A stretch of 64,000 bases of DNA, taken from the NCBI GenBank assembly GCA_018333605.1, contig JAGXSV010000050.1:1-64000 (forward strand), given 5' to 3'. The notes under the pieces were generated by a model. The model was given only the letters and a program-made list of their open reading frames with translations, had not been told where the DNA came from and ran no database searches. Shown here piece after piece: positions 5,410 through 57,576 of this stretch. A program made the translations under genes and the position numbers. How positions within the stretch are numbered: position 1 is the first letter of the stretch; every line of letters begins with the position of its first letter. This DNA comes from Hydrogenophaga sp. GTDB taxonomy: Bacteria > Pseudomonadota > Gammaproteobacteria > Burkholderiales > Burkholderiaceae_C.

Positions 5410-5524
5410 AAGGGGCAGTCGTTTCGAAAGTACGGGGGAAATACCGTCACACCACGGAACGCGCTCTGCCAGGCCGCCGGTGTGGCGCTTGTTGGTGGGG
5501 ACGACGCGAAGGGGTGCAGGGGTT

Positions 5525-6007
5525 TCATCCAATCTCCAGCTGGTGTGCTTTCACCTTGCCCAGCAGCCGGTGCAGGTTGTCCAGGTCGCGCGGACTCAGG
5601 CCCTCAAAGGCTTGCACGATCCATTGCTCATGCTGGCGGGCCATTTCGGCGAACGTGGTGTGCCCGCATGGGGTGAGTCGCACCCGAAAGGCGCGGCGGT
5701 CGCCGTCCACCCCGGTGCGCTCCACCAGGCCTTCGGCCACCAGCTGATCGGTGATGCCGGTGACGTTGCCACCGGTCACCATGAGCCGGTGCGACAACTC
5801 CTTCATCTTCAGCCCTTCGGGATGGCGTTCGAGCTGAGCCATGAGGTCAAAGCGCGGCAGGGTGGTGTCGAACTGCTCGCGCAAGCCGGTGCGCACCCGC
5901 TTCTCGATCAGTTGCGAGCAGGTCAGCAAGCGCAACCACAGCCGCAGTTCGTGGGCATGTTCGCTGTGGGCGCGTGCCTCCAGGTCGAGGGTGAGGTCGG
6001 CGCTCAT
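5525..6007 (-). CDS. MarR-family transcriptional regulator of the aromatic operon
   Basis: A 160-aa winged-helix protein. The recognition region reads [32 protein letters not shown] followed by the wing [15 protein letters not shown], a standard MarR layout between two dimerisation helices. MarR proteins are usually repressors released by an aromatic acid or its CoA ester. Its ATG overlaps the stop of the upstream monooxygenase gene by 4 bp (ATGA), so the two are translationally coupled, and the 17-bp dyad at the operon's head (8386-8402) is the natural candidate target. Ligand unknown; an aryl-CoA intermediate is plausible. Confidence 0.85.
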
Positions 6008-11438: not shown

Positions 11439-12692
11439 TCATTGGTAGCTGCGTGCGTCTTCAATGACCTTGCCGTCGTTCGGCAGGGTGCCCGGCCTGA
11501 CGACCTGCACCGAGCCGCGCAGTTTGGTGACGTCGCGCATCACCGCTTCTATCTGTTCGCCCAGTCCATCCACCGCTTCGGCCGCTTCCACCTGCAGGCA
11601 CATGCTGTCGTTGGCCATTTCGCCGCTGACCACCAGGCGCGCCTTGCCCACTTGTGGGAAGCGCCGCGCAATGTCGGCCACTTGTGACGGGTGCACAAAC
11701 ATGCCTTTGATCTTGGTGGTCTGGTCGGCGCGGCCCATCCAGCCTTTGATGCGCGGCGCGGTGCGACCGGTCGGGCAGCTGCCGGGCAAGATGGCGGACA
11801 AGTCGCCTGTGCCGAACCGGATCAGCGGGTACGCGGGGTTGAGCGTGGTCACCACCAGTTCGCCCACCTCGCCCTCGGGCACGGGGTCGCCCGTGCCAGG
11901 CCGCACAATTTCCACGATCACGCTTTCTTCGAGCACCAGGCCTTGGCGCGCGCCGGTCTCGTAAGCCACCAGGCCCAGGTCGGCCGTGGCGTAGGTCTGG
12001 TACACGTCCACACCGTGTTCTTTGAACCAGGCCGTCAGGCTGGGCGGGCAGGCTTCACCGCCCACCGATGCCTTGCTCAGACAGGCGATGTTGGCGCCGG
12101 CTTCTTTGGCCTTTTCGAGCAAGATGCGCAGAAAGCTGGGCGTGCCGGTGTAGCCGCTGGGCTTCAGATCCTGCAGGGCTTCGAGCTGCTGCTCGGTCTG
12201 GCCCGTGCCGGCCGGGAACACGGTGCAGCCCACCGCGTGTGCGCCCGCTTCCAGAATGAACGCGCCCGGTGTCATGTGGTAACTGAAGCTGTTGTGCACC
12301 AGTTCACCCGAGCGAAAACCCGCTGCATACAAAGCCCGTCCGGTGCGCCAGTAATCGGCCGTGTGGCCTTCGGGTTCGTAGATGGGGCCCGGCGACGCAA
12401 AAATGCGCGACATGCCGGGGCCGCGCACCAGCGCCGAAAAACCGCCAAAGGCGTCGCCACCGGCTGCGCGCAGGGCTTTTTGGCGCTCCAGCAACTCGCT
12501 CTTGCGCGTGACGGGCAGACGGGCCAAGGCCGCGCGGCTGTTCACTGCTGTGGCATCTACGCCTTGAAGGATCTCGGCCAGGGCCGCGCTGCTCGCCTGA
12601 GCGTGGGCGATCTGCGTCGGCAGCGCTGCCATCTGCGCGGCTTCACGCTCAGCAGGCGAACGGGTTTCCAGGGCGTCAAAAAAAACGGTCAT
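11439..12692 (-). CDS. Phenylacetate-CoA ligase (PaaK)-like adenylate-forming enzyme
   Basis: The 417-aa protein is shorter than canonical acyl-CoA synthetases and matches the PaaK-type layout: RLPVTRKSELLERQ near the front, NSFSYHMTPGAFILEAGAHAVGC in the centre, GYTGTPSFLRILLEKA, SVGGEACPPSLTAWF, and YATADLGLVAYET, with C-terminal MGRADQTTKIKGMFVHPSQVADI. It would make a CoA thioester from an aryl- or alkyl-acetate-like acid. The start is taken at 12692 (M-T-V-F-F-D-A-L-E); the longer frame runs through an intergenic repeat. It is the distal gene of the Liv-type transporter cluster, separated from livF by that repeat, so its product may activate the imported acid. Confidence 0.8.
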   Translation of the reverse strand: MTVFFDALETRSPAEREAAQMAALPTQIAHAQASSAALAEILQGVDATAVNSRAALARLPVTRKSELLERQKALRAAGGDAFGGFSALVRGPGMSRIFASPGPIYEPEGHTADYWRTGRALYAAGFRSGELVHNSFSYHMTPGAFILEAGAHAVGCTVFPAGTGQTEQQLEALQDLKPSGYTGTPSFLRILLEKAKEAGANIACLSKASVGGEACPPSLTAWFKEHGVDVYQTYATADLGLVAYETGARQGLVLEESVIVEIVRPGTGDPVPEGEVGELVVTTLNPAYPLIRFGTGDLSAILPGSCPTGRTAPRIKGWMGRADQTTKIKGMFVHPSQVADIARRFPQVGKARLVVSGEMANDSMCLQVEAAEAVDGLGEQIEAVMRDVTKLRGSVQVVRPGTLPNDGKVIEDARSYQ

Positions 12693-12740
12693 ATTCAAAA
12701 CCACAAAAGGTGGGGGGAGACGTCTCAAACCAAGAACGCA

Positions 12741-12840
12741 GCGGAACCGGCTTTGCCGGGCCGCCAGCGTTGCCCCCTTGAGGGGGTGACGGCCGCAGGC
12801 GGCGCGGATGTGGGCCACAGGTCCTGCGGCGCGGGGGGAT
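12741..12840 (-). repeat. Stop-codon-linked GC-rich intergenic repeat, copy A
   Basis: Read in the gene direction the element begins immediately after the livF-type stop codon: CCCCCCGCGCCGC, then a CCCCCTCAAGGGGG hairpin, and ends with the stem CCGGC-AAA-GCCGG. Copy B at 52090-52155 has the same order, and its last stem is CGGGC-AAA-GCCCG, a paired change that preserves the hairpin. Related elements follow two more genes in the window. Confidence 0.6.
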
Positions 12841-13650
12841 TCAAGCCAGCCAGCGCTTGCGCCGTTTGTAGCTTTTCACATCCTTGAACGACTTGCGCTC
12901 GCCGCCGCCCATGCCCAGGTAAAACTCTTTCACGTCTTCGTTGTTGCGCAGGTCGGACGCCAGGCCGTCCATCACGATCCGGCCGCTTTCCATGATGTAG
13001 CCATAGTCGGCGTACTTCAGCGCCATGTTGGTGTTTTGCTCGGCGATCAGGAAGGTCACTTTTTCTTTGGTGTTGAGGTCCTTCACGATCTCGAACACCT
13101 CTTCCACGATCTGCGGGGCCAGGCCCATGGAAGGCTCGTCGAGCAGCATCACGCTCGGGTTGGTCATGAGCGCGCGGCCAATCGCGCACATCTGCTGCTC
13201 ACCGCCCGAGGTGTAGGCCGCCTGGCTGGTGCGCCGGGTTTTCAGGCGCGGGAAGTAGTTGTACACCTTCTCCAGGTTGCGCGCGATTTCGGCCTTGTCT
13301 TTGCGGGTGTAAGAACCCGTCATCAGGTTTTCCTCGATGGTCAGGTGGGCAAAGCAGTGCCGACCCTCCATCACCTGCACCACACCCCGGTTCACCAGGT
13401 CGGCCGGTGTGAGGTTTTCAATGCGTTCGCCGCGCAACTCGATGCTGCCCTTGGTGACCTCGCCCCGCTCGGCTTTGAGCAGGTTGGAAATGGCGCGCAG
13501 CGTGGTGGTTTTGCCTGCGCCGTTGCCGCCCAGCACCGCCGCGATTTTGCCCTCGGGCACGTTGAGCGAGACGCCCTTGAGCACCAGGATCACGTGGTTG
13601 TAGATGACCTCGATGCCATTGACGTTGAGTACGGATGTGGTGGGTTCCAT
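12841..13650 (-). CDS. Branched-chain amino acid-type ABC transporter ATPase (LivF-like)
   Basis: The 269-aa ATPase has Walker [11 protein letters not shown] (41-50), signature SGGEQQM and Walker B VMLLDEPSMGLAP. The D-E-P-S-M-G-L-A-P form is characteristic of LivF rather than LivG. It would energise uptake through the LivH/LivM pair encoded upstream. Its C-terminus carries an extra basic tail (YKRRKRWLA) beyond the usual LivF length of about 235. The ATG at 13650 is supported by AAGGAA at 7-bp spacing; the frame extends a further 9 codons without support. It sits 102 bp after the substrate-binding gene, across three strong hairpins. Confidence 0.9.
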   Translation of the reverse strand: MEPTTSVLNVNGIEVIYNHVILVLKGVSLNVPEGKIAAVLGGNGAGKTTTLRAISNLLKAERGEVTKGSIELRGERIENLTPADLVNRGVVQVMEGRHCFAHLTIEENLMTGSYTRKDKAEIARNLEKVYNYFPRLKTRRTSQAAYTSGGEQQMCAIGRALMTNPSVMLLDEPSMGLAPQIVEEVFEIVKDLNTKEKVTFLIAEQNTNMALKYADYGYIMESGRIVMDGLASDLRNNEDVKEFYLGMGGGERKSFKDVKSYKRRKRWLA

Positions 13651-41070: not shown

Positions 41071-41823
41071 TCAGTGCACCTCGGCGGTGGGCGGGGCTGC
41101 GGTGTCGTGCAGGCCGGCGGGGTGCGGGTTGGGTGTGTCGCTGGCGACCACGCCGTCGACAAAGCGCACGATCCGTTTGGCATAAGCGGCCATCTCGGGT
41201 TCGTGGGTCACCATCAGCACGGTGATGCCGTGGTCAGCATTCAGGCGCCAGATCAGTTCCATGATTTCTTTGCTGCGTTGCGTGTCCAGGTTGCCGGTGG
41301 GCTCGTCGGCCAGCAGCACGGCGGGCTGTGTGACGATGGCGCGCGCAATGGCCACGCGCTGTTGTTGTCCGCCGGAAAGCTCGGCCGGGGTGTGGTGTTC
41401 CCAGCCCTTGAGACCCACCGAGTCGAGCGCGCGCGCCGCGGCGGCATGGCGCTCGGTGGCGGGCTCGCCGCGGTAAATCAGCGGCAGTTCCACGTTTTCT
41501 TGCGCCGAGGTGCGCGCCAGCAGGTTGAAGCCCTGAAACACAAAGCCGAAATAGCGCCGGCGCAGCCGGGCGCGCTGGTCGCGCGTGAGCGACTGCACCT
41601 GCACGCCCTGAAACGCGTAGGTGCCGGTGGTGGGCGTGTCCAGGCAACCCAGCGTGTTCATGGCGGTGGACTTGCCCGAGCCACTGGGCCCCATGATGGC
41701 CACAAAGTCGCCGGCCTGTATGTCCAGGTCCACGCCCTTGAGCGCCTGAAACGCGGTGCTGCCTTCGCCATACACCTTGGTGATGCCGCGCAACCGGATC
41801 AGGGGTTGTTTGGTGGTTTGCAT
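41071..41823 (-). CDS. MacB-type ABC transporter ATPase
   Basis: The 250-aa ATPase has Walker A MGPSGSGKST, signature ELSGGQQQRVAIARAI and Walker B AVLLADEPTGNLD. The ATG at 41823 gives the common family start (M-Q-T-T-K-Q-P-L-I-R-L). The frame stays open for 59 more codons to an ATG at 42000 that overlaps the adaptor stop; that stretch is made of two copies of a 28-residue unit (SPHAPPLRGSLPPEGADPAW and so on) encoded by the 84-bp repeat, so translation as a Pro-rich N-terminal extension is possible but unusual. Confidence 0.9.
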   Translation of the reverse strand: MQTTKQPLIRLRGITKVYGEGSTAFQALKGVDLDIQAGDFVAIMGPSGSGKSTAMNTLGCLDTPTTGTYAFQGVQVQSLTRDQRARLRRRYFGFVFQGFNLLARTSAQENVELPLIYRGEPATERHAAAARALDSVGLKGWEHHTPAELSGGQQQRVAIARAIVTQPAVLLADEPTGNLDTQRSKEIMELIWRLNADHGITVLMVTHEPEMAAYAKRIVRFVDGVVASDTPNPHPAGLHDTAAPPTAEVH

Positions 41824-41835
41824 GCCGGTGATCCG

Positions 41836-41998
41836 ATCCGGCGCCGGGCCGCCCCAAGCCGGATCAGCCCCCTCGGGGGGCAGCGACCCGCGCAGCGGTG
41901 GAGCGTGGGGGCTCGGTGCATCCGGCGCCGGGCCGCCCCAAGCCGGATCAGCCCCCTCGGGGGGCAGCGACCCGCGCAGCGGTGGAGCGTGGGGGCTC
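41836..41998 (-). repeat. Stop-codon-linked GC-rich repeat, copy C, doubled (79 bp x 2)
   Basis: Two identical 79-bp copies (41836-41914 and 41920-41998) lie head to tail with an 84-bp period. In gene direction each reads GAGCCCCCACGCTCCACC, then CCCCCCGAGGGGG, then GCTTGGGGCGGCCCGG. The first copy overlaps the last two bases of the adaptor stop codon. The period is a multiple of three, so both copies are in frame with the downstream ATPase gene. It interrupts an otherwise close pump operon. Confidence 0.9.
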
Positions 41999-43340
41999 AT
42001 TGAGCAGCCCCGCTGCGCTGGTCGGTGATGACGGCCAGGCCTTCGCTCAGGCCCTCGCCCGTGACTTCGGTGTGGCGGCCATCGCTGATGCCGGTCTTCA
42101 CGACCTGCGCCACGGGCTGGCCGTCTTTGAGCAACCAGATCTGGCGCATGCCCGGTGCGCCGCTGTTGGTTTCGGTGGCCCGGCGCGGGGTTCCGGTGCG
42201 GGGCATGCGCGGCATCAGCGTGGACAGCACGTTGGAGCCCGAGTTCGGTCGGGCCGCCGTGGCGCCGCTGGTGGCGGGCGAAAAGCGCAGCGCGGTGTTG
42301 GGCACCAGCAGCACGTCGTTGCGTTCAATGGCAATGATGGTGGCCGACGCCGTCATGCCGGGTCTCAGGCTCAGGTCGCTGTTGTCCACGTCGAGCGTGG
42401 TCACATAGGTCACCACGTTGTCCGTTTTGGTGGAGCCAAACGCCACCCGGTTGATGGTGGCCGGGTAGCGCCGCGCCGGGTAGGCGCTCACGGTGAAGCT
42501 GGCTTTTTGCCCGGTCTTGACCGAACCCACGTCGGCCTCGTCCACATTCACTTCCAGCCGCAGTTGCGACAGGTCTTCGGCTACGGAAAACAGCGTCACG
42601 GCCTGCAGCGAAGCGGCCACCGCGTTGCCTGGATCGACCGAACGCGAGAGCACCACACCGTCAATCGGTGAGCGGATCGAGGCTTTGGACAGGTTGGTCT
42701 CGTCGGTGGCCACGGTGGCACGAGCCGACGCCACGTTGGCACGTGCGCTGGCTTCGGCGGCCACGGCGCGCTCCACGGAAGCGCGTGCGGTATCCATCTC
42801 GGCGGCCGAGGGGACTTTCCCCCCTGAAAGCCGCGCAACTTCTTCAAAGCGCGCCAGGCTGGACCGGGCTTCTTTCACCGTGGCCCCGGCCTGGGCCAGT
42901 TGCGCCTGCGACGCTGCCAGCGCCGCACGCGAACGCAGCACCTGGTCGTTGAACTTGGCGGTGTCCAGCTCCACCAGCACCTGTCCGGTTTTCACCCGGT
43001 CGTTCACATCCACCATCACCCGCTTGACCGTGCCCGAGAGCTCGCTGCCAATGTTTACCGCCCGCGTGGGCTGCAGCGTGCCGTTGGCCGACACCGTGAG
43101 GGTGAGGTTGCCCTTGCGCAGGGCCTCGGTCACGTACACCGGCGCTGCGTTGGTTTTCTTTTGCGCCTGCCAGTAGTAGAAGCCGCCGGCCACGGCCACC
43201 GCAGCGGCCACACCCAGCCAGAGCGACGGGCGCTGCCACCAGCGCGCGGGCTTGTCGTCGCCCAGCAAGTCGTTGAGGTTGGCAGGGGCCGATGCAGGCG
43301 ATGTGGGCGGCTTGGCGGAGGGCGTGTTCGGGGTGTTCAT
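41997..43340 (-). CDS. MacA-type periplasmic adaptor (membrane-fusion protein) of the efflux pump
   Basis: The 447-aa protein has one N-terminal membrane helix (WLGVAAAVAVAGGFYYW), then the lipoyl half-motif ALRKGNLTLTVSANGTLQPT, coiled-coil hairpin (about 130-230, Ala/Arg/Glu-rich with regular heptads), and the second lipoyl half KASIRSPIDGVVLSRSVDPG followed by the beta-barrel. It bridges the MacB-type permease to the outer-membrane factor. The central C-terminal part has a Ser/Thr/Arg-rich insertion (ATSGATAARPNSGSNV) that is probably flexible. The gene opens 28 bp after the NodT-type gene on the same strand. Confidence 0.92.
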   Translation of the reverse strand: MNTPNTPSAKPPTSPASAPANLNDLLGDDKPARWWQRPSLWLGVAAAVAVAGGFYYWQAQKKTNAAPVYVTEALRKGNLTLTVSANGTLQPTRAVNIGSELSGTVKRVMVDVNDRVKTGQVLVELDTAKFNDQVLRSRAALAASQAQLAQAGATVKEARSSLARFEEVARLSGGKVPSAAEMDTARASVERAVAAEASARANVASARATVATDETNLSKASIRSPIDGVVLSRSVDPGNAVAASLQAVTLFSVAEDLSQLRLEVNVDEADVGSVKTGQKASFTVSAYPARRYPATINRVAFGSTKTDNVVTYVTTLDVDNSDLSLRPGMTASATIIAIERNDVLLVPNTALRFSPATSGATAARPNSGSNVLSTLMPRMPRTGTPRRATETNSGAPGMRQIWLLKDGQPVAQVVKTGISDGRHTEVTGEGLSEGLAVITDQRSGAAQ

Positions 43341-47641: not shown

Positions 47642-48949
47642 ATGAGCGCCACAACGCCCCATAACCCGATGTTCAACGCCGAAACCGCTGCCATGGGCTT
47701 GCCTGCCGACCTGAGCGGTGCGGTGGCCGTGTTGGCTGTGGCGCTGGGCTGCGGTTTGCTGATTGGTATTGAGCGGGAGCGGCGCAAGGGCAGCGGTCCC
47801 CACCGGGCGTTTGCCGGTTTGCGCACCTTTGCGCTGACCTGTGTGGCCGGCGCCCTGGCGGCGCTCACCCAGCTGACCGGGCTGGTGGTGACGGGTGCGG
47901 CGCTGGTGGCGGCGCTGGCGGCCATGGCCTACTGGCGCGACCGCTCTGACGACCCCGGTGCGACCACCGAAGTGGCGCTGCTGCTGACCTACCTGATCGG
48001 GGTGCTCTGCGCCTGGAGCCTGCCGCTGGCGGCGGCCACGGCGGTGGGCCTGACGGGTTTGCTGGCGGGCCGCCAGCGGCTGCACCACTTTGCCAGCCAT
48101 TGGCTCAGCCCGGGCGAGGTGCGCGACGGCATCATGCTGGCGGCGCTGGTGCTGATGGCGCTGCCGCTGGTGCCCAACCGGCCGCTGTGGGGGCCGGTGC
48201 TCAACCCCCATGTCATCGTGCAGCTGGTGGCCCTGCTGCTGGGTGTGCAGGCCCTGGCCCACCTGAGCCGCCGCCTGCTGCAAGCGCGCCACGCGGTGGC
48301 GTTGTCGGCGCTGGCTTCGGGCTTTGTGTCCAGCACCGCCACCATCGCCACGCTGGGGCTGGCGGCGCGCGAGCGGCCCGCCGACGTGCGGCTGCTGGCC
48401 GGTGGTGGTCTGTTGTCTTGTGTGTCCACCCAGCTGCAGTTGCTGCTGGTGGCGGCTGCGGTGCAGCCGGCCTGGCTGGCATGGCTCTGGGCGCCGGCCC
48501 TGGCCGCTGCTGCGCTGGCATTGCTGTGGGGCGGATGGATGGTGCGGGGGGCGCCGGCTGGCCCGGCCGGTGCGCAGCAGCCGCCCGATGAAGACCGCAT
48601 GTTCAGCCTGTGGGGTGCAGCGGGCGTGGCGGCATTGCTCAGCGGCATTCAGGTGGCGGTGCATGCCTTGGAACGCTGGCTGGGCGCCACCGGCCTGCTG
48701 CTCGGGGCCACGCTGGCGGCTCTGGCCGACCTGCATGCGTCACTGGCGGCGGTGTTTGCATCCAGCCCGCCCCAAGCCGGTGGTACGGCGGTCTGGGCGG
48801 TGATGCTGGCGCTGTCGGTGCATGCGGGCAGCAAAAGCGTGACCGCCGGCTTCGCCGGTGGTTGGCGCTATCTGGTGGCGCTGGCCCCCGGGCTTTGGGC
48901 GCACACGGCGCTGTGCGTGGCGGGGGTTTACTGGATGGCCCACCGATAA
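47642..48949 (+). CDS. MgtC/SapB N-domain + DUF4010 membrane protein
   Basis: The 435-aa protein has about 12 hydrophobic segments. The N-terminal part (LAVALGCGLLIGIERERRKG, then FAGLRTFALTCVAGALAAL) is the MgtC/SapB domain; the C-terminal half is DUF4010, with ALASGFVSSTATIATLGLAARE and HAGSKSVTAGFAGGW. Members are inner-membrane proteins of unknown transport or regulatory role. It is transcribed away from amn with only 36 bp between the start codons, so their promoters must overlap. Confidence 0.88.
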   Translation: MSATTPHNPMFNAETAAMGLPADLSGAVAVLAVALGCGLLIGIERERRKGSGPHRAFAGLRTFALTCVAGALAALTQLTGLVVTGAALVAALAAMAYWRDRSDDPGATTEVALLLTYLIGVLCAWSLPLAAATAVGLTGLLAGRQRLHHFASHWLSPGEVRDGIMLAALVLMALPLVPNRPLWGPVLNPHVIVQLVALLLGVQALAHLSRRLLQARHAVALSALASGFVSSTATIATLGLAARERPADVRLLAGGGLLSCVSTQLQLLLVAAAVQPAWLAWLWAPALAAAALALLWGGWMVRGAPAGPAGAQQPPDEDRMFSLWGAAGVAALLSGIQVAVHALERWLGATGLLLGATLAALADLHASLAAVFASSPPQAGGTAVWAVMLALSVHAGSKSVTAGFAGGWRYLVALAPGLWAHTALCVAGVYWMAHR

Positions 48950-48955
48950 GCCATG

Positions 48956-49071
48956 GCCCAGGGCCGCAGCGCCGGGAGGCCCCAAGCAAGGCCTCGTCCC
49001 ACGAACCGGGCTTGGACCGGAGCCTTTTCCGGTCTTGGGGCCACGACCCACGCCGCGGCGGCACGTGGGGG
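48956..49071 (-). repeat. Stop-codon-linked GC-rich repeat, copy D (divergent)
   Basis: Immediately after the gor stop, in gene direction, it reads CCCCCACGTGCCGCCGCGG, then GCGTGGGTCGTGGCCCC and a long stem built from CCGGAAAAGGCTCCGG and GCCCCAAG/CTTGGGGC. Only the first 25 or so bases match copies A-C closely. It fills the 122-bp gap between converging genes, where a terminator is expected. Confidence 0.45.
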
Positions 49072-50478
49072 TTATGCCTTCACGGGTTCGCGCATGGTGA
49101 CAAATTCTTCGGCCGCCGTGGGGTGGATGCCGATGGTGCTGTCAAACATGGCCTTGGTCGCACCCGCCTTCATGGCCACGGCGAAGCCCTGCACGATTTC
49201 ACCGGCTTCGGCGCCCACCATGTGCAGGCCCACCACGCGGTCGGTGGCGGTGTCCACCACCAGTTTCATGAGCGTGCGCTCGGTGCTGCCCGAGAGCGTG
49301 TGCTTCAGGGCCTTGAACTCGCTGCGGAAAATGGTGACCTGGCCAAATTTTTCGCGTGCCGCGGCTTCGCTGAAACCCACGGTGCCGATGTTGGGATGGG
49401 TGAACACGGCGGTGGGGATGAAGTCGTAGTCCATGCTGCGCGGGGGCTTGCCCGCTGCGGGGCCAAACAAGTGGTCCACCACCACCATGGCTTCACCCAG
49501 CGCCACCGGGGTGAGCTGCACGCGGTTGGTCACGTCGCCCACGGCGTAAATGCTGGGCACGTTGGTCTGGTAATGCGCGTTGACGATGACCTCGTTTTGC
49601 CCGCCCTGGGTCACCCCCACAGTGTCCAGCCCCAGGCCGTGCACATTGGGCACGCGCCCGGTGGCGTAAAGCACCGCGTCGGCCACCACCAGGTTGCCGT
49701 CTTCCAGCTCCACGCGCAGGCCTTCAGGCGTCTTGCGGATGTCCACCACGCCCGCGTTCAGGCGCAGGTCCACGCCCGACTTGATTATTTCAGCAGCCAC
49801 GAAATGGCGTATCTCATCGTCAAAACCGCGCAGCACCTGTTCACCGCGGTAAAGCTGCGTCACCTGGGCGCCCAGGCCGTTGAAGATGGATGCAAATTCG
49901 CAGGCAATGTAGCCGCCGCCCACCACCAGCAGACGCTGTGGAAAAGGCTCCAGGTCAAAGATGTCGTTGGACGTGATGACGTTGTCCTGGCCCACAAAGT
50001 GCGGCACATGCGGTGTGCCGCCGGTGGCAATGAGGATGTTTTTGGCGGTGAAATTCTGGTGGCCGGGGCTGCCGTCGGCATGCAGGGTGGCCAACGTGAT
50101 GGCGTGCTCGCCGTCGATGCGGGCAAAGCCGTCGAACACCGTGACGCCCGACCCGCGCAGCAGGTTGCCGTAAACGCCGTTGAGGCGGCTGATTTCTTTG
50201 GCTCGGTTGGCCTTGAGGGTGGTCCAGTTCAGGCGCGGTGCGCTGTCGTGTTCCCAGCCGTAGCCGCGTGCCTCTTCGAAGCCGTCGTGGTAATGCGCGG
50301 CGTAGCTGTAGAGCTTTTTCGGGATGCAGCCCACGTTCACACAGGTGCCGCCCAGGCCGTCTTGCCCCAAGGTTTCGGCCAGGGCCACGCGGGCGCCGCG
50401 CTGCGCGGCCATGCGGGCAGCGCGCACACCACCACTGCCGCCACCGATCACAAACAGGTCAAAGTCAAAAGCGCTCAT
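49072..50478 (-). CDS. gor: Glutathione-disulfide reductase
   Basis: The 468-aa flavoenzyme reduces oxidised glutathione with NADPH. It opens FDLFVIGGGSGGVRAARMAA (FAD-binding) and has the redox-active pair Cys46/Cys51 in GGTCVNVGCIPKK. The NADPH fold is LLVVGGGYIACEFASIF; the second FAD element is SIYAVGDVTNRVQLTPVA and the C-terminal base is in GIHPTAAEEF. Length is standard. The leader includes a perfect 7-bp stem (GGCCCTC/GAGGGCC, 50507-50523). Glutathione reductase rather than mercuric or lipoamide reductase is supported by the whole pattern. Confidence 0.93.
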   Translation of the reverse strand: MSAFDFDLFVIGGGSGGVRAARMAAQRGARVALAETLGQDGLGGTCVNVGCIPKKLYSYAAHYHDGFEEARGYGWEHDSAPRLNWTTLKANRAKEISRLNGVYGNLLRGSGVTVFDGFARIDGEHAITLATLHADGSPGHQNFTAKNILIATGGTPHVPHFVGQDNVITSNDIFDLEPFPQRLLVVGGGYIACEFASIFNGLGAQVTQLYRGEQVLRGFDDEIRHFVAAEIIKSGVDLRLNAGVVDIRKTPEGLRVELEDGNLVVADAVLYATGRVPNVHGLGLDTVGVTQGGQNEVIVNAHYQTNVPSIYAVGDVTNRVQLTPVALGEAMVVVDHLFGPAAGKPPRSMDYDFIPTAVFTHPNIGTVGFSEAAAREKFGQVTIFRSEFKALKHTLSGSTERTLMKLVVDTATDRVVGLHMVGAEAGEIVQGFAVAMKAGATKAMFDSTIGIHPTAAEEFVTMREPVKA

Positions 50479-52023: not shown

Positions 52024-52089
52024 ACAATGGGCCGGCTTGTGCACCGACCGCACCTCAACCGGCGCGAGTGCCCAACAACCCAGGATGGC

Positions 52090-52155
52090 GCGGAACGGGC
52101 TTTGCCCGGCCGCAGGCATCGCCCCCTGGGGGGGGCCGCGCAGCGGCGCGGGGGG
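52090..52155 (-). repeat. Stop-codon-linked GC-rich repeat, copy B
   Basis: In gene direction, directly after the 3-hydroxybutyryl-CoA dehydrogenase stop: CCCCCCGCGCCGCTGCGCGG, then a C-run/AGGGGGCG stem and finally CGGGC-AAA-GCCCG. The order and stem-preserving changes match copy A at 12741-12840. The element may act as a 3' end structure for the dehydrogenase message. Confidence 0.65.
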
Positions 52156-53007
52156 TTAGTAGGTGTACACGCCGCGCCCGGTCTTGCGGCCCAGCCAGCC
52201 CGCCGCCACCATTTCCTTCAGCAGCGGCGCCGGGCGGTACTTGCTGTCGTTGTATTCGGCCATGTAGACGTTCATCACCGCCAGGCACACGTCCAGGCCA
52301 ATCATGTCGGCCAGCGCCAGCGGGCCAATGGGCTGGTTGCAGCCGAGCTTCATGCCGGCGTCGATGTCTTCCGGCTTGGCCAGGCCTTCGGCCAGCACAA
52401 AGAAGGCCTCGTTGATCATGGGCACCAAGATGCGGTTGACCACGAAGCCGGGCGCATTCTTCACGGTGATGGGGGTTTTGCCCAGCGCCTCGGCCATCGC
52501 CTTCACGGCGTCGTGCGTGGCGTCGCTGGTCTGCAGGCCGCGGATGATTTCCACCAGCGCCATCATGGGCACGGGGTTGAAAAAGTGCATGCCAATGAAG
52601 CGGTCGGGGCGCTGCGTGGCGGCGGCCAGCTTGGTGATGCTGATCGAGCTGGTGTTGGTGGCCACGATCACCTCGGGCGCCAGGATGCCGTCCAGCTGCT
52701 GCAGGATCTTGACCTTCAGAGCCTCGTTTTCGGTGGCCGCTTCAATGACCAACTGCGCGCCCTTGAGGTCTTCGTAGTGGGTCGATCCCTTGATGCGGGC
52801 CAGCGCCGCGTCTTTCTCGGCGGCGGTCATCTTTTCTTTCTTGATCAACCGGTCCAGGCTGCTGGCCACCGTGGCCAGGGCTTTGTCCACCGCCGCCTGG
52901 GCGATGTCGACCAGCACCACCTGGATGCCGCTGGTGGCGCAGGCCTGCGCAATGCCGTTGCCCATGGTGCCCGAGCCAATAATGCCCACGGTCTGGATGC
53001 TGCTCAT
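52156..53007 (-). CDS. 3-hydroxybutyryl-CoA dehydrogenase (PaaH/Hbd family)
   Basis: The 283-aa NAD-dependent enzyme oxidises 3-hydroxyacyl-CoA to 3-ketoacyl-CoA. Its Rossmann motif is VGIIGSGTMGNGIAQACA (6-23). The His-Glu pair is seen in RFIGMHFFNPVPMMALVEII, with the C-terminal domain NAPGFVVNRILVPMINEAF. Length matches the single-function family. The ATG at 53007 has AGGAG 8 bp upstream; the GTG 9 bases earlier overlaps that site. It could supply the hydroxyacyl step missing from the aminobenzoate operon, but it stands 45 kb away. Confidence 0.92.
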   Translation of the reverse strand: MSSIQTVGIIGSGTMGNGIAQACATSGIQVVLVDIAQAAVDKALATVASSLDRLIKKEKMTAAEKDAALARIKGSTHYEDLKGAQLVIEAATENEALKVKILQQLDGILAPEVIVATNTSSISITKLAAATQRPDRFIGMHFFNPVPMMALVEIIRGLQTSDATHDAVKAMAEALGKTPITVKNAPGFVVNRILVPMINEAFFVLAEGLAKPEDIDAGMKLGCNQPIGPLALADMIGLDVCLAVMNVYMAEYNDSKYRPAPLLKEMVAAGWLGRKTGRGVYTY

Positions 53008-53264
53008 ACGGTTCACTCCTGTGTGTTTCGAATCAAAAAAGTCAAGTCAAAGAAAGATTGTCCGGGGTGTCGTTGTCTGGGTGCGCACCCCTGCGTCACG
53101 CAAGCGTCTTCCGGGCGTATTCGTTAGGTGGCGCCATCTACCGCACCATCAGCCGCCGTGCTAACTTGCTGCCCTATTGTCGCCCTGCATCTTGCAACGG
53201 TATGACAGCGCGTGCGCGGTTCGTCCTGTGGGGCGATGTGCCCGTGCCAGACAACGGAGATCTC

Positions 53265-54902
53265 ATGTTGGACTACATCATCGTCGGTGGCGGCTCGGCC
53301 GGTAGCGTGCTGGCCGGTCGCCTGAGCGAAGACCCCGCCGTGCGCGTGGCGCTGCTCGAAGCCGGCCCGGCCGACCGCAGCGTGCTCATCCACTGCCCGG
53401 CCGGCCTGGCTGTGATGGCCAAGTACCAGCTCAACGGCTGGGGCTACAACACCGTGCCGCAGCCGGGGCTGAACGGGCGCCGTGGCTACCAGCCGCGCGG
53501 CAAGGTGCTGGGCGGCTCCAGTTCCATCAACGCCATGATCTACGCCCGTGGTCACGCGCAAGACTACGACCATTGGGCCGCGCAAGGCAACCCCGGCTGG
53601 TCGTTTGCCGACGTGTTGCCCTACTTCAAGCGCTCGGAGCACAACGAGCGCGGTGCCGACGCGCTGCATGGGCAGGGCGGCCCGCTGAATGTGATGGACC
53701 TGCGCAGCCCCAATCCGTTTCTGCCCGCGTTCATGGAAGCCGGCCAGCAAGCCGGCCACGCGCACAACACCGACTTCAACGGCCCCGAGCAAGAAGGCGT
53801 GGGCGCTTACCAGGTGACGCACAAAAACGGCGAACGCTGGAGCGCGGCCAAGGGCTACCTCACGCCCCACCTGGGGCGGCCCAACCTGACGGTGATCACA
53901 AACGCGCTGACCACCCGGGTGCTGATGGACACGGTGAACGGTCAGCCCTGCGCCGTGGGGGTGGAATACCGGCTCAACGGCGGGCGGGGCGCACCACAAA
54001 CGATGCGGCTGAAACCGGGCGGCGAGGTGCTGCTGAGCGCGGGGGCGTTTGGTTCGCCGCAGTTGCTCATGCTCTCGGGCATTGGCCCGGCCGAGCACCT
54101 GCGCGAGCACGGCATTGACGTGGTGCACGACCTGCCCGGTGTGGGCGCCAACCTGCACGACCACCCCGATGTGGTGATGGTGGTCAATGCCCCGAAGTTG
54201 ACCGATTTGTTTGGCCTGTCGTTGCCCGGCGTGTTGACGGCCCTCAGGGGTATGGCCGAGTGGCGCCGTGCGCGCAGTGGGCCGCTCACGAGCAACTTTG
54301 CCGAAGCGGGCGGTTTCATCAAGAGCGACCCTGACGAGGTCATTCCCGACCTGCAGTTGCATTTTGTGGTGGGCAAGCTGATGGATCATGGCCGAAAGAC
54401 CGTCTTTGGACACGGCTATTCATGCCACGTGTGCTTGCTGCGACCCAAGAGCCGGGGCACGCTGCGCCTGGCCAGTGCCGACCCTCAGGTGGCGCCGCTG
54501 ATCGACCCCGCCTTTTTGAAAGATCCGGACGACGTGGCCCGCCTGGTGCGGGGGTTCAAGCTGGTTCGCGAGTTGATACAGCAGCCCGCCTTGAGTCGCC
54601 ACGGCGGTCAGGAGTCCGCCGCCTCGCGCGCGGCGCAGAGCGATGCGCAGATCGAGCAGTTTGTGCGCAACCACGCCGACACCATCTACCACCCGGTGGG
54701 CACCTGCCGCATGGGCGCTGACGCTTTGGCTGTGGTGGACGCCCGCCTGCGCTTGCACGGTGTGGCGGGCCTGCGCGTGGTGGACGCGTCCATCATGCCG
54801 CGCGTCGTGGGTGGCAACACCAACGCGCCGGTGATCATGGTGGCGGAGAAAGCGGTGGATATGATTCGGGAAGACCACTTTTCAGAAAGCCCCACACCAT
54901 GA
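53265..54902 (+). CDS. GMC-family oxidoreductase (choline dehydrogenase-like)
   Basis: The 545-aa flavoenzyme opens DYIIVGGGSAGSVLAGRLSE (FAD binding) and has the GMC signatures GYQPRGKVLGGSSSINAMIYARGHAQDYDHW and GAFGSPQLLMLSGIGPAEHL. The catalytic His pair region is TIYHPVGTCRMG with NTNAPVIMVAEKAVDMI near the end. It oxidises an alcohol; the substrate is uncertain, as choline and aliphatic or aromatic alcohols are all possible. The ATG at 53265 follows GGAGA. It overlaps the downstream ABM gene by 4 bp (ATGA), so the two are translated together. Confidence 0.9.
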   Translation: MLDYIIVGGGSAGSVLAGRLSEDPAVRVALLEAGPADRSVLIHCPAGLAVMAKYQLNGWGYNTVPQPGLNGRRGYQPRGKVLGGSSSINAMIYARGHAQDYDHWAAQGNPGWSFADVLPYFKRSEHNERGADALHGQGGPLNVMDLRSPNPFLPAFMEAGQQAGHAHNTDFNGPEQEGVGAYQVTHKNGERWSAAKGYLTPHLGRPNLTVITNALTTRVLMDTVNGQPCAVGVEYRLNGGRGAPQTMRLKPGGEVLLSAGAFGSPQLLMLSGIGPAEHLREHGIDVVHDLPGVGANLHDHPDVVMVVNAPKLTDLFGLSLPGVLTALRGMAEWRRARSGPLTSNFAEAGGFIKSDPDEVIPDLQLHFVVGKLMDHGRKTVFGHGYSCHVCLLRPKSRGTLRLASADPQVAPLIDPAFLKDPDDVARLVRGFKLVRELIQQPALSRHGGQESAASRAAQSDAQIEQFVRNHADTIYHPVGTCRMGADALAVVDARLRLHGVAGLRVVDASIMPRVVGGNTNAPVIMVAEKAVDMIREDHFSESPTP

Positions 54903-55198
54903 TTCTTGAACACGCCGACATCCGCATCGACCCTGCGAAAGCCACCGCGTTCGAGGCCGCCATCCTGCGCGGCGCCGCCACCGTGATTGCCCAGGCCAAA
55001 GGCTTCAAAGGCTACAAAGTCAACCGCAGCATCGAAAGCCCGGGCCGTTACATCCTCATGATTTACTGGGACACGCTGGAAGACCACACCGTGGATTTTC
55101 GCCAGTCGCCCGCGTTTGCCGAATGGCGCGCCATCGTGGGCCCGTTCTTTGCGCAGCCACCCGTGGTGGAGCACCTGGAACTCGTTGGGAAAAGTTAA
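54899..55198 (+). CDS. Antibiotic-biosynthesis-monooxygenase (ABM)-domain protein
   Basis: The 99-aa protein shows the dimeric alpha+beta ABM fold: ILEHADIRIDPAKATAFEAAI at the front, AKGFKGYKVNRSIESPGRYILMIYWDTLEDH in the middle and SPAFAEWRAIVGPFFAQPPVVEHLE at the end. Despite the name these small proteins are varied, acting as monooxygenases or isomerases without a cofactor, or in binding. The 4-bp overlap with the GMC oxidoreductase suggests it acts on the aldehyde or its follow-on product, or stabilises it. It ends 110 bp from the converging arginase gene. Confidence 0.85.
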   Translation: MILEHADIRIDPAKATAFEAAILRGAATVIAQAKGFKGYKVNRSIESPGRYILMIYWDTLEDHTVDFRQSPAFAEWRAIVGPFFAQPPVVEHLELVGKS

Positions 55199-55308
55199 CC
55201 CACCGCCATCGCCGGCTTGCTGCGTGTCGTCGGCTTCGCCCCTCAAGGCGCGATGGCTGCGGCTGGTCAGAGCCAGTTCCACGGCATCGTGGATGAAGTC
55301 CGTCCCGG

Positions 55309-56580: not shown

Positions 56581-57576
56581 ATGCCGCAACGAACGACTGC
56601 CTTGACTACTCCATCTACACCCCATCAGTCCCTGCCGTTGACATATCGGCGCCCCGTTGCCTACACCACCTTGTCCCTGCTGTTTGCAGCGACGGTGGCC
56701 GCCTGTGGCGGTGGTGCAGATGCCGAAACCCCAGAGAGCATAGAACAAGTGCCTGCGCGAACACCCTCAAGAACACCGGCACCTGCACCTGCACCTGCAC
56801 CTGCACCTGCACCTGCACCTGCACCTGCACCTGCACCTGCACTTTCCTCATCGACGTGGAAGCCAAGCCTTGCAGACACCTGGCAGTGGCAACTCAGTGG
56901 AGCGATCAATACCAGCTACAACGTGACGGTTTACGACATTGACCTGTTCGACACCCCGAAGGCGACCTTCGATCTGCTGAAAAGCCGGGGCACGCGTGTG
57001 GTTTGTTATTTCTCGGGGGGCAGTTCAGAAAACTGGCGGTCGGATTTCTCCCGTTTTCTTCCCGCCGACATGGGCAATGCGCTTGACGGATGGGCTGGAG
57101 AGCGGTGGCTTGATACGCGCTCAGCAAATGTTCGCGAGATCATGAAAGCCCGGCTGGATCTGGCGAAATCGCGCGGCTGCGATGGCGTCGAGCCAGACAA
57201 TGTGGATGGTTTCATCAACTCGACAGGTTTTCCGCTGACGGCAACCACCCAGTTGGACTACGGCCGGTTCCTGGCACGGGAAGCCCGAGCAAGAGGGTTG
57301 GCGATTGGCTTGAAAAACAACGTCGATCAGGTGGTTGCACTGGAGCCAGACTACGACTTTGCCGTGAACGAGCAGTGCAATCAGTACAGCGAATGTGGCG
57401 CCTATGCCGCGTTCACCAAATCGGGCAAGCCTGTTTTCAATGCCGAGTACCTCAGCAAGTGGGTGACGGACGCCACGAGCCGCGCGTCTTTGTGCGCGGC
57501 ATCCAAAGCCGCCAACATCCGAACCTTGGTGTTGCCGCTAGCGCTCGACGGCAGCTTCCGCTACAGCTGCGACTGA
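56581..57576 (+). CDS. GH114-type endo-alpha-1,4-polygalactosaminidase-like lipoprotein with (Pro-Ala) linker
   Basis: The 331-aa protein has a lipoprotein signal (LSLLFAATVAAC) and then GGGADAETPESIEQ, followed by a Pro-Ala linker of ten perfect hexamer-coded repeats (residues about 67-86). The catalytic-type domain begins WQWQLSGAINTSYNVTVYDID, has RVVCYFSGGSSENWRSDF, and SRGCDGVEPDNVDGF, with conserved acids of the GH114/TM1410 fold. It may cut polygalactosaminoglycan of biofilm or cell surface, but TM1410-like proteins are poorly tested. It is exported and anchored outside. The start at 56581 gives a normal signal peptide. Confidence 0.78.
   Translation: MPQRTTALTTPSTPHQSLPLTYRRPVAYTTLSLLFAATVAACGGGADAETPESIEQVPARTPSRTPAPAPAPAPAPAPAPAPAPAPALSSSTWKPSLADTWQWQLSGAINTSYNVTVYDIDLFDTPKATFDLLKSRGTRVVCYFSGGSSENWRSDFSRFLPADMGNALDGWAGERWLDTRSANVREIMKARLDLAKSRGCDGVEPDNVDGFINSTGFPLTATTQLDYGRFLAREARARGLAIGLKNNVDQVVALEPDYDFAVNEQCNQYSECGAYAAFTKSGKPVFNAEYLSKWVTDATSRASLCAASKAANIRTLVLPLALDGSFRYSCD
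56779..56838 (+). repeat. Hexanucleotide microsatellite (GCACCT)10 in the GH114-type gene
   Basis: Ten perfect tandem copies of GCACCT encode the Ala-Pro linker. Copy-number changes by slipped-strand mispairing would keep the frame and only alter linker length. Confidence 0.95.

Follow-up and report, generated by a model that had tools for sequence, protein, structure and literature searches.

Two described kinds of repeat come closest to the loci analyzed here, the beta-proteobacterial repeat element (BRE; Hot et al. 2011, PMC3110155) and the REPs of E. coli. According to the accessible part of its description, BRE was published without a function, consists of units of 75–91 bp that stand in tandem with few nucleotides between them and in variable copy number, and has a GC content of 63.7–78.9% in its Bordetella copies (PMC3110155). 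REPs, as presented in the available sections of PMC3733652, are single palindromes of 20–40 bp; GTAG REPs are linked to RAYT, and CGTC REPs have stems of 8–9 bp that start with A-T pairs and are mostly arranged as head-to-head dimers. The RepRanger paper, likewise available in part, reports ribosome stalling at REPs that lie within 15 nt of a stop codon and cites Liang, Rudd and Deutscher 2015 for the work on REPs at E. coli stops (PMC12306157).

The window, a stretch of 64,000 nt from a Hydrogenophaga sp. contig that was analyzed as a whole, holds four loci that belong to two families of interspersed repeats of Burkholderiales, structured, GC-rich and non-autonomous, here called type A and type B. 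Type B is probably BRE, an assignment matched on described features and not on sequence letters. Set against the accessible text on BRE, type B agrees in its length of about 80 nt, its GC-richness, its tandem arrays of variable copy number, its mostly intergenic location with some copies within genes, and its Comamonadaceae and Azoarcus hosts (PMC3110155). In the same portion of that text BRE comes without a structure or a stop-codon rule and is reported from chromosomes only, whereas type B has hairpins here and also occurs on plasmids. Type A does not figure in this part of the BRE description, and no description of it was found in the open-licence literature, a search outside of which most subscription papers lie; the type A family is apparently undescribed.

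How, then, does type A relate to the REPs? As far as the available text on E. coli REPs goes (PMC12306157), the likeness lies in hairpins right past stop codons, at intercistronic as well as 3'-terminal sites and in many copies. Type A differs from REPs, as covered by these partial sources, in its three-hairpin unit, its mostly single orientation to the stop and its lack of a RAYT link, and since the RAYT link and the type of unit were both tested and neither agreed with REPs, membership is not claimed. With CGTC REPs, type A shares the absence of a dedicated transposase, a location near gene 3' ends and, in many copies, CGTC before the palindrome; however, its hairpin 2 has a stem of about 5 C/G pairs and its arrays run head-to-tail, and a CGTC REP as characterized in the available part of PMC3733652 is rejected on stem type and array orientation. 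The Bordetella Bor repeats (PMC1590033) and Bor-1 (PMC2267715), the latter with intergenic models of 93 and 117 nt, are like the present elements in being structured, near coding regions and betaproteobacterial, a likeness drawn by description only and from parts of both papers. The intrastrand triplex motif TM-ECO also has three C/G runs per unit, but in the accessible text its order is C-G-G, its runs are 9 nt long and it keeps no specific distance to genes (PMC4666352), whereas the elements have the order C-C-G, runs of about 5 and a position close to stops. It was this difference in run order that led a triplex motif of the E. coli type to be set aside.

Two repeat families in the window

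The first-pass annotation had placed four loci (12741-12840, 41836-41998, 48956-49071 and 52090-52155) right after stop codons and along the upstream gene, and all four do stand there, 0–2 nt past the stops of minus-strand genes (TGA+2 at 12841, TGA+1 at 41997, TAA+0 at 49072 and TAA+0 at 52156). This observation is confirmed, and it goes beyond the window. The loci had been taken for one repeat family, a reading that is rejected because two covariance models separate them: 12741-12840 and 52090-52155 are type A, and 41836-41998 and 48956-49071 are type B (Table 1). The central CCCC/GGGG hairpin ascribed to all four is intact in three and is broken by a 36-nt insert at 48956-49071, while the paired change CCGGC/GCCGG versus CGGGC/GCCCG is present between the 12741 and 52090 copies. 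Searching with the type A model recovered two further, decayed copies in the window, both after stops; some window copies are decayed, and one no longer has the fold. Folding energies alone do not stand out at the four loci (z against shuffles of −2.96, −0.19, −1.98 and −1.73).

Table 1. Repeat copies and neighboring genes in the window. Type A copies are scored with covariance model R1 and type B copies with R2; apart from the degenerate copy, the scored window copies are model-building sequences or, for the second type B unit, near-identical to one.
Feature	Position	Strand	Score or remark
Type A copy 1	12733..12838	-	77.7 bits
Parts of type A copy 1	C-run 12838-12833; hairpin 2 12786-12773; hairpin 3 12771-12735	-	hairpin 1 enlarged
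Type A copy 2	52082..52155	-	68.3 bits; C-run immediately past TAA, hairpins 1-3
Type B unit 1, stop-proximal	41916..41996	-	94.3 bits; 84-nt period
Type B unit 2, tandem copy	41832..41912	-	95.1 bits
Degenerate type B, convergent gap	48960..49071	-	30.8 bits, E 4e-4; 36-nt insert in hairpin 2
Decayed type A, past stop of MarR-type gene (5525-6007)	5440..5524	-	27.5 bits, E 6e-4
Decayed type A, past stop of ABM-domain gene (54899-55198)	55199..55295	+	25 bits, E 0.002
Gene upstream of type A copy 1, LivF-like ABC ATPase	12841..13650	-	matches below curated cut-offs
Gene after type A copy 1, PaaK-like	11439-12692	-	match below cut-off
Gene upstream of type B pair, HlyD-type membrane fusion protein	41997..43340	-	
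Gene after type B pair, ABC ATPase	41071-41823	-	
Gene upstream of degenerate type B, pyridine nucleotide-disulphide oxidoreductase	49072..50478	-	
MgtC/DUF4010 gene	47642-48949	+	convergent with 49072..50478
Gene upstream of type A copy 2, 3-hydroxybutyryl-CoA dehydrogenase	52156..53016	-	

Both families follow a common order of C-run, hairpin, C/G hairpin and long hairpin, and the string GGCGGCCCGGC is common to many A and many B copies. The type A unit, of about 75–110 nt, has three hairpins: the C-run and hairpin 1 are followed by a short linker (often GTCA), a hairpin 2 of about C5/G5 with a loop that is often TCAA, and a hairpin 3 whose base varies and whose tip resembles CCGGC-AAA-GCCGG, after which CTGG(G) often stands. 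CGTCA precedes hairpin 2 in many type A copies, and the letters GTAG lie inside hairpin 1 of some copies from another genus of the family. The type B unit, of about 80 nt, runs from C-run and hairpin 1 through CGCTG to hairpins 2 and 3, and the outer stem of hairpin 3 varies freely around TTGGGGCGGCCCGGC. The GC content of type B matches ranges from 0.68 to 0.87, and that of the window pair, 0.81, lies above the 63.7–78.9% given for Bordetella BRE copies. Type B arrays have periods of 81, 84 and 90 nt, with one, two or three units at one and the same gap. These periods are multiples of three, which holds also for arrays within called genes (L006 and L047); an intergenic type B array in the 800-kb sample introduced below (L185) has a longer period of about 119 nt.

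A core pattern gave 148 matches in the window's genome, which is incomplete (2.74 Mb, 62% complete), against 3 for the reversed control, overlapping matches being counted repeatedly, and for this reason the loci are not attributed to chance. In its SecD this genome is nearest to Hydrogenophaga among the named genomes listed by the search. No match to Rfam was found in the window at gathering score, which rejects a known Rfam family, and Rfam searched with three loci returned no match except one unrelated IRES (E 0.097). Window genes were called with a codon-usage gene finder at 88% coding density. A repeat scan of the window detected the type B pair and a hexamer run, and the remaining matches, between genes, look like chance. 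The hexamer run is a CACCTG repeat at 56752-56848.

Placement after stop codons

Positions relative to stops, which the annotation had proposed to count, were taken from an 800-kb sample picked regardless of the element from two same-genus genomes and one from another genus of the family. Out of 47 R1 hits 45 were used (the two weakest were left out) and out of 28 R2 hits 25 (three weak or overlapping ones were left out); one of the 45 lies in a stretch without an upstream gene, which leaves 44 placeable copies, and one that overlaps a better R2 hit was kept in the placement and orientation counts and excluded from those of C-run spacing and T-tails. For type A, the nearest upstream gene end is a same-strand stop in 39 of the 44 copies. 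Thirty-one of these 39 lie within 60 nt of the stop, and the remaining 8 are later array units or stand 94–122 nt off. The C-run begins 0–9 nt past the stop in 29 of the 30 copies counted within 60 nt (median 1.5), and a C-run start at most 9 nt past the stop is found at 30/31 type A stops versus 199/701 control gene ends. The first 60 nt past the stop have a mean folding energy of −26.6 kcal/mol at type A stops versus −17.6 kcal/mol at the 701 control ends. A first pair no more than 15 nt past the stop, a loose measure of folding, is present at 30/31 element sites but at 660/701 control ends too, and is therefore no mark of the element.

The window's own genome, in a sample of copies selected by the core pattern, gives a similar count for type A, whose nearest upstream gene end is a same-strand stop in 27/31; among 23 type B copies, 11 follow a same-strand stop and 9 lie within called genes. 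Type B is often inside genes or inverted in the own genome and in the 800 kb alike. In a genome of another family (G450), for which stretches were chosen from the best hits and genes were called with a model trained on the window's genome, 19/21 first type A copies follow a same-strand stop, 11 of them within 60 nt, and several of the remaining copies are preceded by a degenerate one that adjoins the stop. The stops before type A (L176-L215) are less often TGA than in all genes (13/31 vs 538/736), with TAA commoner and TAG commoner as well (9/31 vs 75/736, p 0.004).

The gene that follows the 39 type A copies is co-directional in 21 and convergent in 18, whereas 69–74% of all gene ends are co-directional; one further type A copy in the 800 kb lies in a divergent gap. 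Orientation can be judged on co-directional gaps only: in a convergent gap an element has a same-strand stop upstream whichever way it points, and the 18 convergent-gap copies therefore say nothing on this point. In co-directional gaps 21 type A copies are forward and 4 inverted, or 20 versus 4 when arrays are collapsed (p 0.0015). Three convergent gaps (L210 and L212 in the 800 kb, L036 in the own genome) hold two copies each, one behind the stop of either gene, and one of the two in L212 fits type B better. Within operons as well as in convergent gaps, type A concentrates directly past stops, and most copies point the same way relative to the upstream gene.

Type A lies between mreD and mrdA, yajC and secD, and narH and narJ, between KpsF/GutQ-type (KdsD-like) and KdsC-type genes, between thiolase and short-chain dehydrogenase genes, and, with matches below cut-off, between an ECF sigma factor and an anti-sigma-like gene and between CbtB- and CbtA-like genes. 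One hypothesis, close to the terminator-like element of the first-pass annotation, is that the elements are transcription terminators or attenuators placed after genes. Their siting at gene 3' ends, their GC-rich stems and the share of stop-following copies in convergent gaps (18/39 in the 800 kb, somewhat above gene ends generally) would agree with this. However, a T-rich tail (at least 5 T in the 8 nt past hairpin 3) follows only 2/44 type A copies of the 800 kb, copies sit within the yajC|secD, mreD|mrdA, KdsD|KdsC-type and narH|narJ pairs, and one copy is followed by a separate hairpin with a T-run (L032, by eye). Because of the operon-internal copies and the 42/44 without a T-rich tail, these are not ordinary intrinsic terminators, and a full terminator at all of the listed operon sites is not credible; the broader reading, attenuators included, is improbable.

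We consider the most probable reading, at roughly 0.47, to be that type A is a REP-like, non-autonomous 3'-end hairpin module that perhaps acts at translation termination or as a barrier to mRNA decay, an interpretation by analogy. Type A would work like E. coli REPs close to the stop: a very stable hairpin cluster there would slow the terminating ribosome, block 3'-5' decay, or both, and the upstream message could thereby be adjusted independently of the next cistron. An effect that acts on the transcript or through it is favoured by the orientation in co-directional gaps.

Pairing in the hairpins

Covariation, first noticed between two window copies, is present in larger sets as well. For hairpin 3 of 30 own-genome type A copies (of 31 listed, one with an extra base being left out), 94.9% of cells are paired versus 83.3% in shuffled alignments and 8/14 pairs show two-sided changes; none of 500 shuffles reaches the paired share or the covariation score, and 14 reach the number of pairs. 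With 125 distinct type A copies the paired share is 96.4% and 12/17 pairs show two-sided changes, with 0/500 shuffles as high on any measure, and for type B it is 93.3%, also with 12/17 pairs two-sided and 0/500 shuffles as high; both of these large alignments were fitted to the structure, while alignments A1 and A2 are plain MAFFT. Hairpin 1 of type A has at least 4 pairs in 111/115 copies and takes 49 different stems, as counted by a pair-maximising fold without a control.

Is this pairing kept in RNA or in DNA? Under selection at the level of the transcript, G-U mismatches are expected to be better tolerated than A-C. In hairpin 3 the two are about equally frequent, with G-U:A-C ratios of 27:30 in type A and 20:22 in type B, and the other type B hairpins give 8:10 (hairpin 1) and 8:3 (hairpin 2). 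The acceptor stems of 35 distinct tRNAs show 10:1 (Fisher p 0.009 versus type A), a comparison with two limits, in that the tRNA finder is biased against mismatches and the element cells are non-independent. Since G-U equals A-C in hairpin 3, the pairing looks strand-symmetric and not RNA-specific, and the case for an RNA function from covariation alone is weakened. Where the first-pass annotation had taken covariation as a hint of selected structure, the paired changes are real, but the mismatch pattern carries no RNA bias. This symmetry speaks for pairing maintained in DNA, through either mobility or template switching.

Gain, loss and spread

The gaps mreD|mrdA, yajC|secD and kdsD|kdsC were compared in the best 30 same-genus matches each, and their contents were sorted by eye. 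At mreD|mrdA, 9 gaps are empty, with genes 1–2 nt apart or overlapping, 12 hold type A (one with two copies, three with an inverted B behind), 5 hold type B in one to three units, 3 hold other short sequence and one, L138, looks like an A/B hybrid joined at GGCGGCCCGGC. Type A occupies 17 of the yajC|secD gaps, some with a wholly different hairpin 1. At kdsD|kdsC, type A is present in 15 gaps, in some of them degenerate; another 10 gaps are short or empty, one contains type B, one a deletion remnant, and 3 are unreadable. Model R1 agreed with the assignment by eye in 14/15 type A gaps checked for yajC (of 17), 13/13 for kdsC (of 15) and 9/10 for mreD (of 12). Named genomes compared at yajC|secD by eye (64 of 80 loci used) include several Rhodoferax and Limnohabitans with a short, element-free gap, three Hydrogenophaga loci with type A (L216-L218, R1 matches) and one Acidovorax with an A-like element that contains an insert. 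Because orthologous gaps are empty or hold A, B, A plus B or a hybrid, the elements have been gained and lost; some copies seem to have been inherited for long, and an element is lacking altogether from many orthologous gaps. By eye, a different GC-rich inverted repeat directly follows the yajC stop in most of the 13 yajC|secD gaps without type A (L057-L083). In one mreD|mrdA gap (L141), half a type A forms a nearly perfect palindrome, as from a fold-back event.

The proposal of a mobile 3'-end module is supported by the stop placement, the mostly single orientation, the presence and absence at orthologous gaps and the amplification. The last is seen in G450, where a 20-nt core has 79 matches (at most 1 mismatch) against 0 for reversed controls, and where near-identical copies stand singly and in head-to-tail arrays. 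What moves them? It is very improbable that the elements are RAYT-mobilised REPs of the known GTAG or CGTC classes. They are palindromic and sited at 3' ends, and the CGTCA before hairpin 2 in many type A copies recalls the CGTC tag, but their three hairpins, 5-pair C-G stem and head-to-tail arrays are unlike CGTC REPs as far as these are described in the available part of PMC3733652. Moreover, the core is absent from all 30 RAYT loci searched in same-genus genomes (about 3.3 kb each), and the amplified G450, a complete genome, has no match to the Y1 transposase domain (Y1_Tnp), nor have G489 and G079; G158 and G025 have a single match each. A Y1 (RAYT-like) gene is present in 51/60 same-genus genomes, exactly one in all but two of them, whatever the copy number of the element. 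The 0/30 RAYT loci with the core and the lack of Y1 in the amplified G450 make RAYT unlikely as a partner, and a RAYT-linked REP is rejected on the same two counts. The mover would rather be some other enzyme or recombination process, which may act on DNA hairpins.

An alternative hypothesis, which we regard as a possible one that deserves serious weight, is that these are selfish DNA-hairpin repeats without a host function: the hairpin would be a DNA structure for mobility or would be maintained through template switches from one arm to the other, and copies after stops would be those that survive because insertion is least harmful there. The strand-symmetric mismatches, the presence and absence at orthologous sites, the head-to-tail arrays, the amplification and the decayed copies all fit. 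However, a filter for harmless sites alone leaves the orientation bias in co-directional gaps (20 vs 4) unexplained, and it does not account for a C-run that starts a median of 1.5 nt past the stop (30 copies) when the spacing between hairpin 3 and the start of a co-directional next gene is variable (median 74 nt). A more speculative and unlikely idea is that type A represents an undescribed class of mobile elements for which translation termination determines where they land, in that hairpin DNA enters the single-stranded DNA exposed behind a terminating ribosome and so supplies ready-made 3' modules without any RAYT. Entry of this kind would explain the very short stop spacing, the favoured orientation and the DNA-symmetric covariation together.

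Many genes of Hydrogenophaga and its relatives, including those of widely conserved operons, have a hairpin cluster at the stop codon that comes and goes between species. If the REP-like module does tune expression, it would form a regulatory layer that is widespread and has no Rfam family; if the elements are selfish, they would be mobile elements that land by an unusual rule and have no known enzyme. Both readings can be tested directly on the orthologous gaps, of which some are filled and others empty.

The distribution is wider than the genus, contrary to the genus-specific element that the first-pass annotation had considered: covariance models find type A in 3 families and type B in 8 families of the order. 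Among 200 genomes of the order, searched with stricter filters so that copy counts per genome are to be read as at least the number found, 6 have type A (three of this family, the own genome included, two of a second family, f4, and one of a third, f3) and 22 have type B. The core pattern is several-fold over its own control in nearly all of 35 same-genus genomes, G034 being the exception, and has few matches in 25 genomes of other families, some of them modestly over control (18 vs 4 in G055). At least one match occurs in 296/299 genomes of the family, which in many may be chance. Type B also stands on four plasmids, of Acidovorax, Rhodoferax, Azoarcus and Variovorax, and a relative of type A follows arsC on a Comamonas plasmid; among these plasmid copies one is inverted and one lies within a Fic gene.

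Within G450, where 67 of the 79 core matches were used for counts of loops and arrays, the hairpin 2 loop is TCAA in 14/15 singletons and in 14/19 stop-proximal array copies, and TCGA in 24/33 later copies; the G450 arrays may share ancestry.
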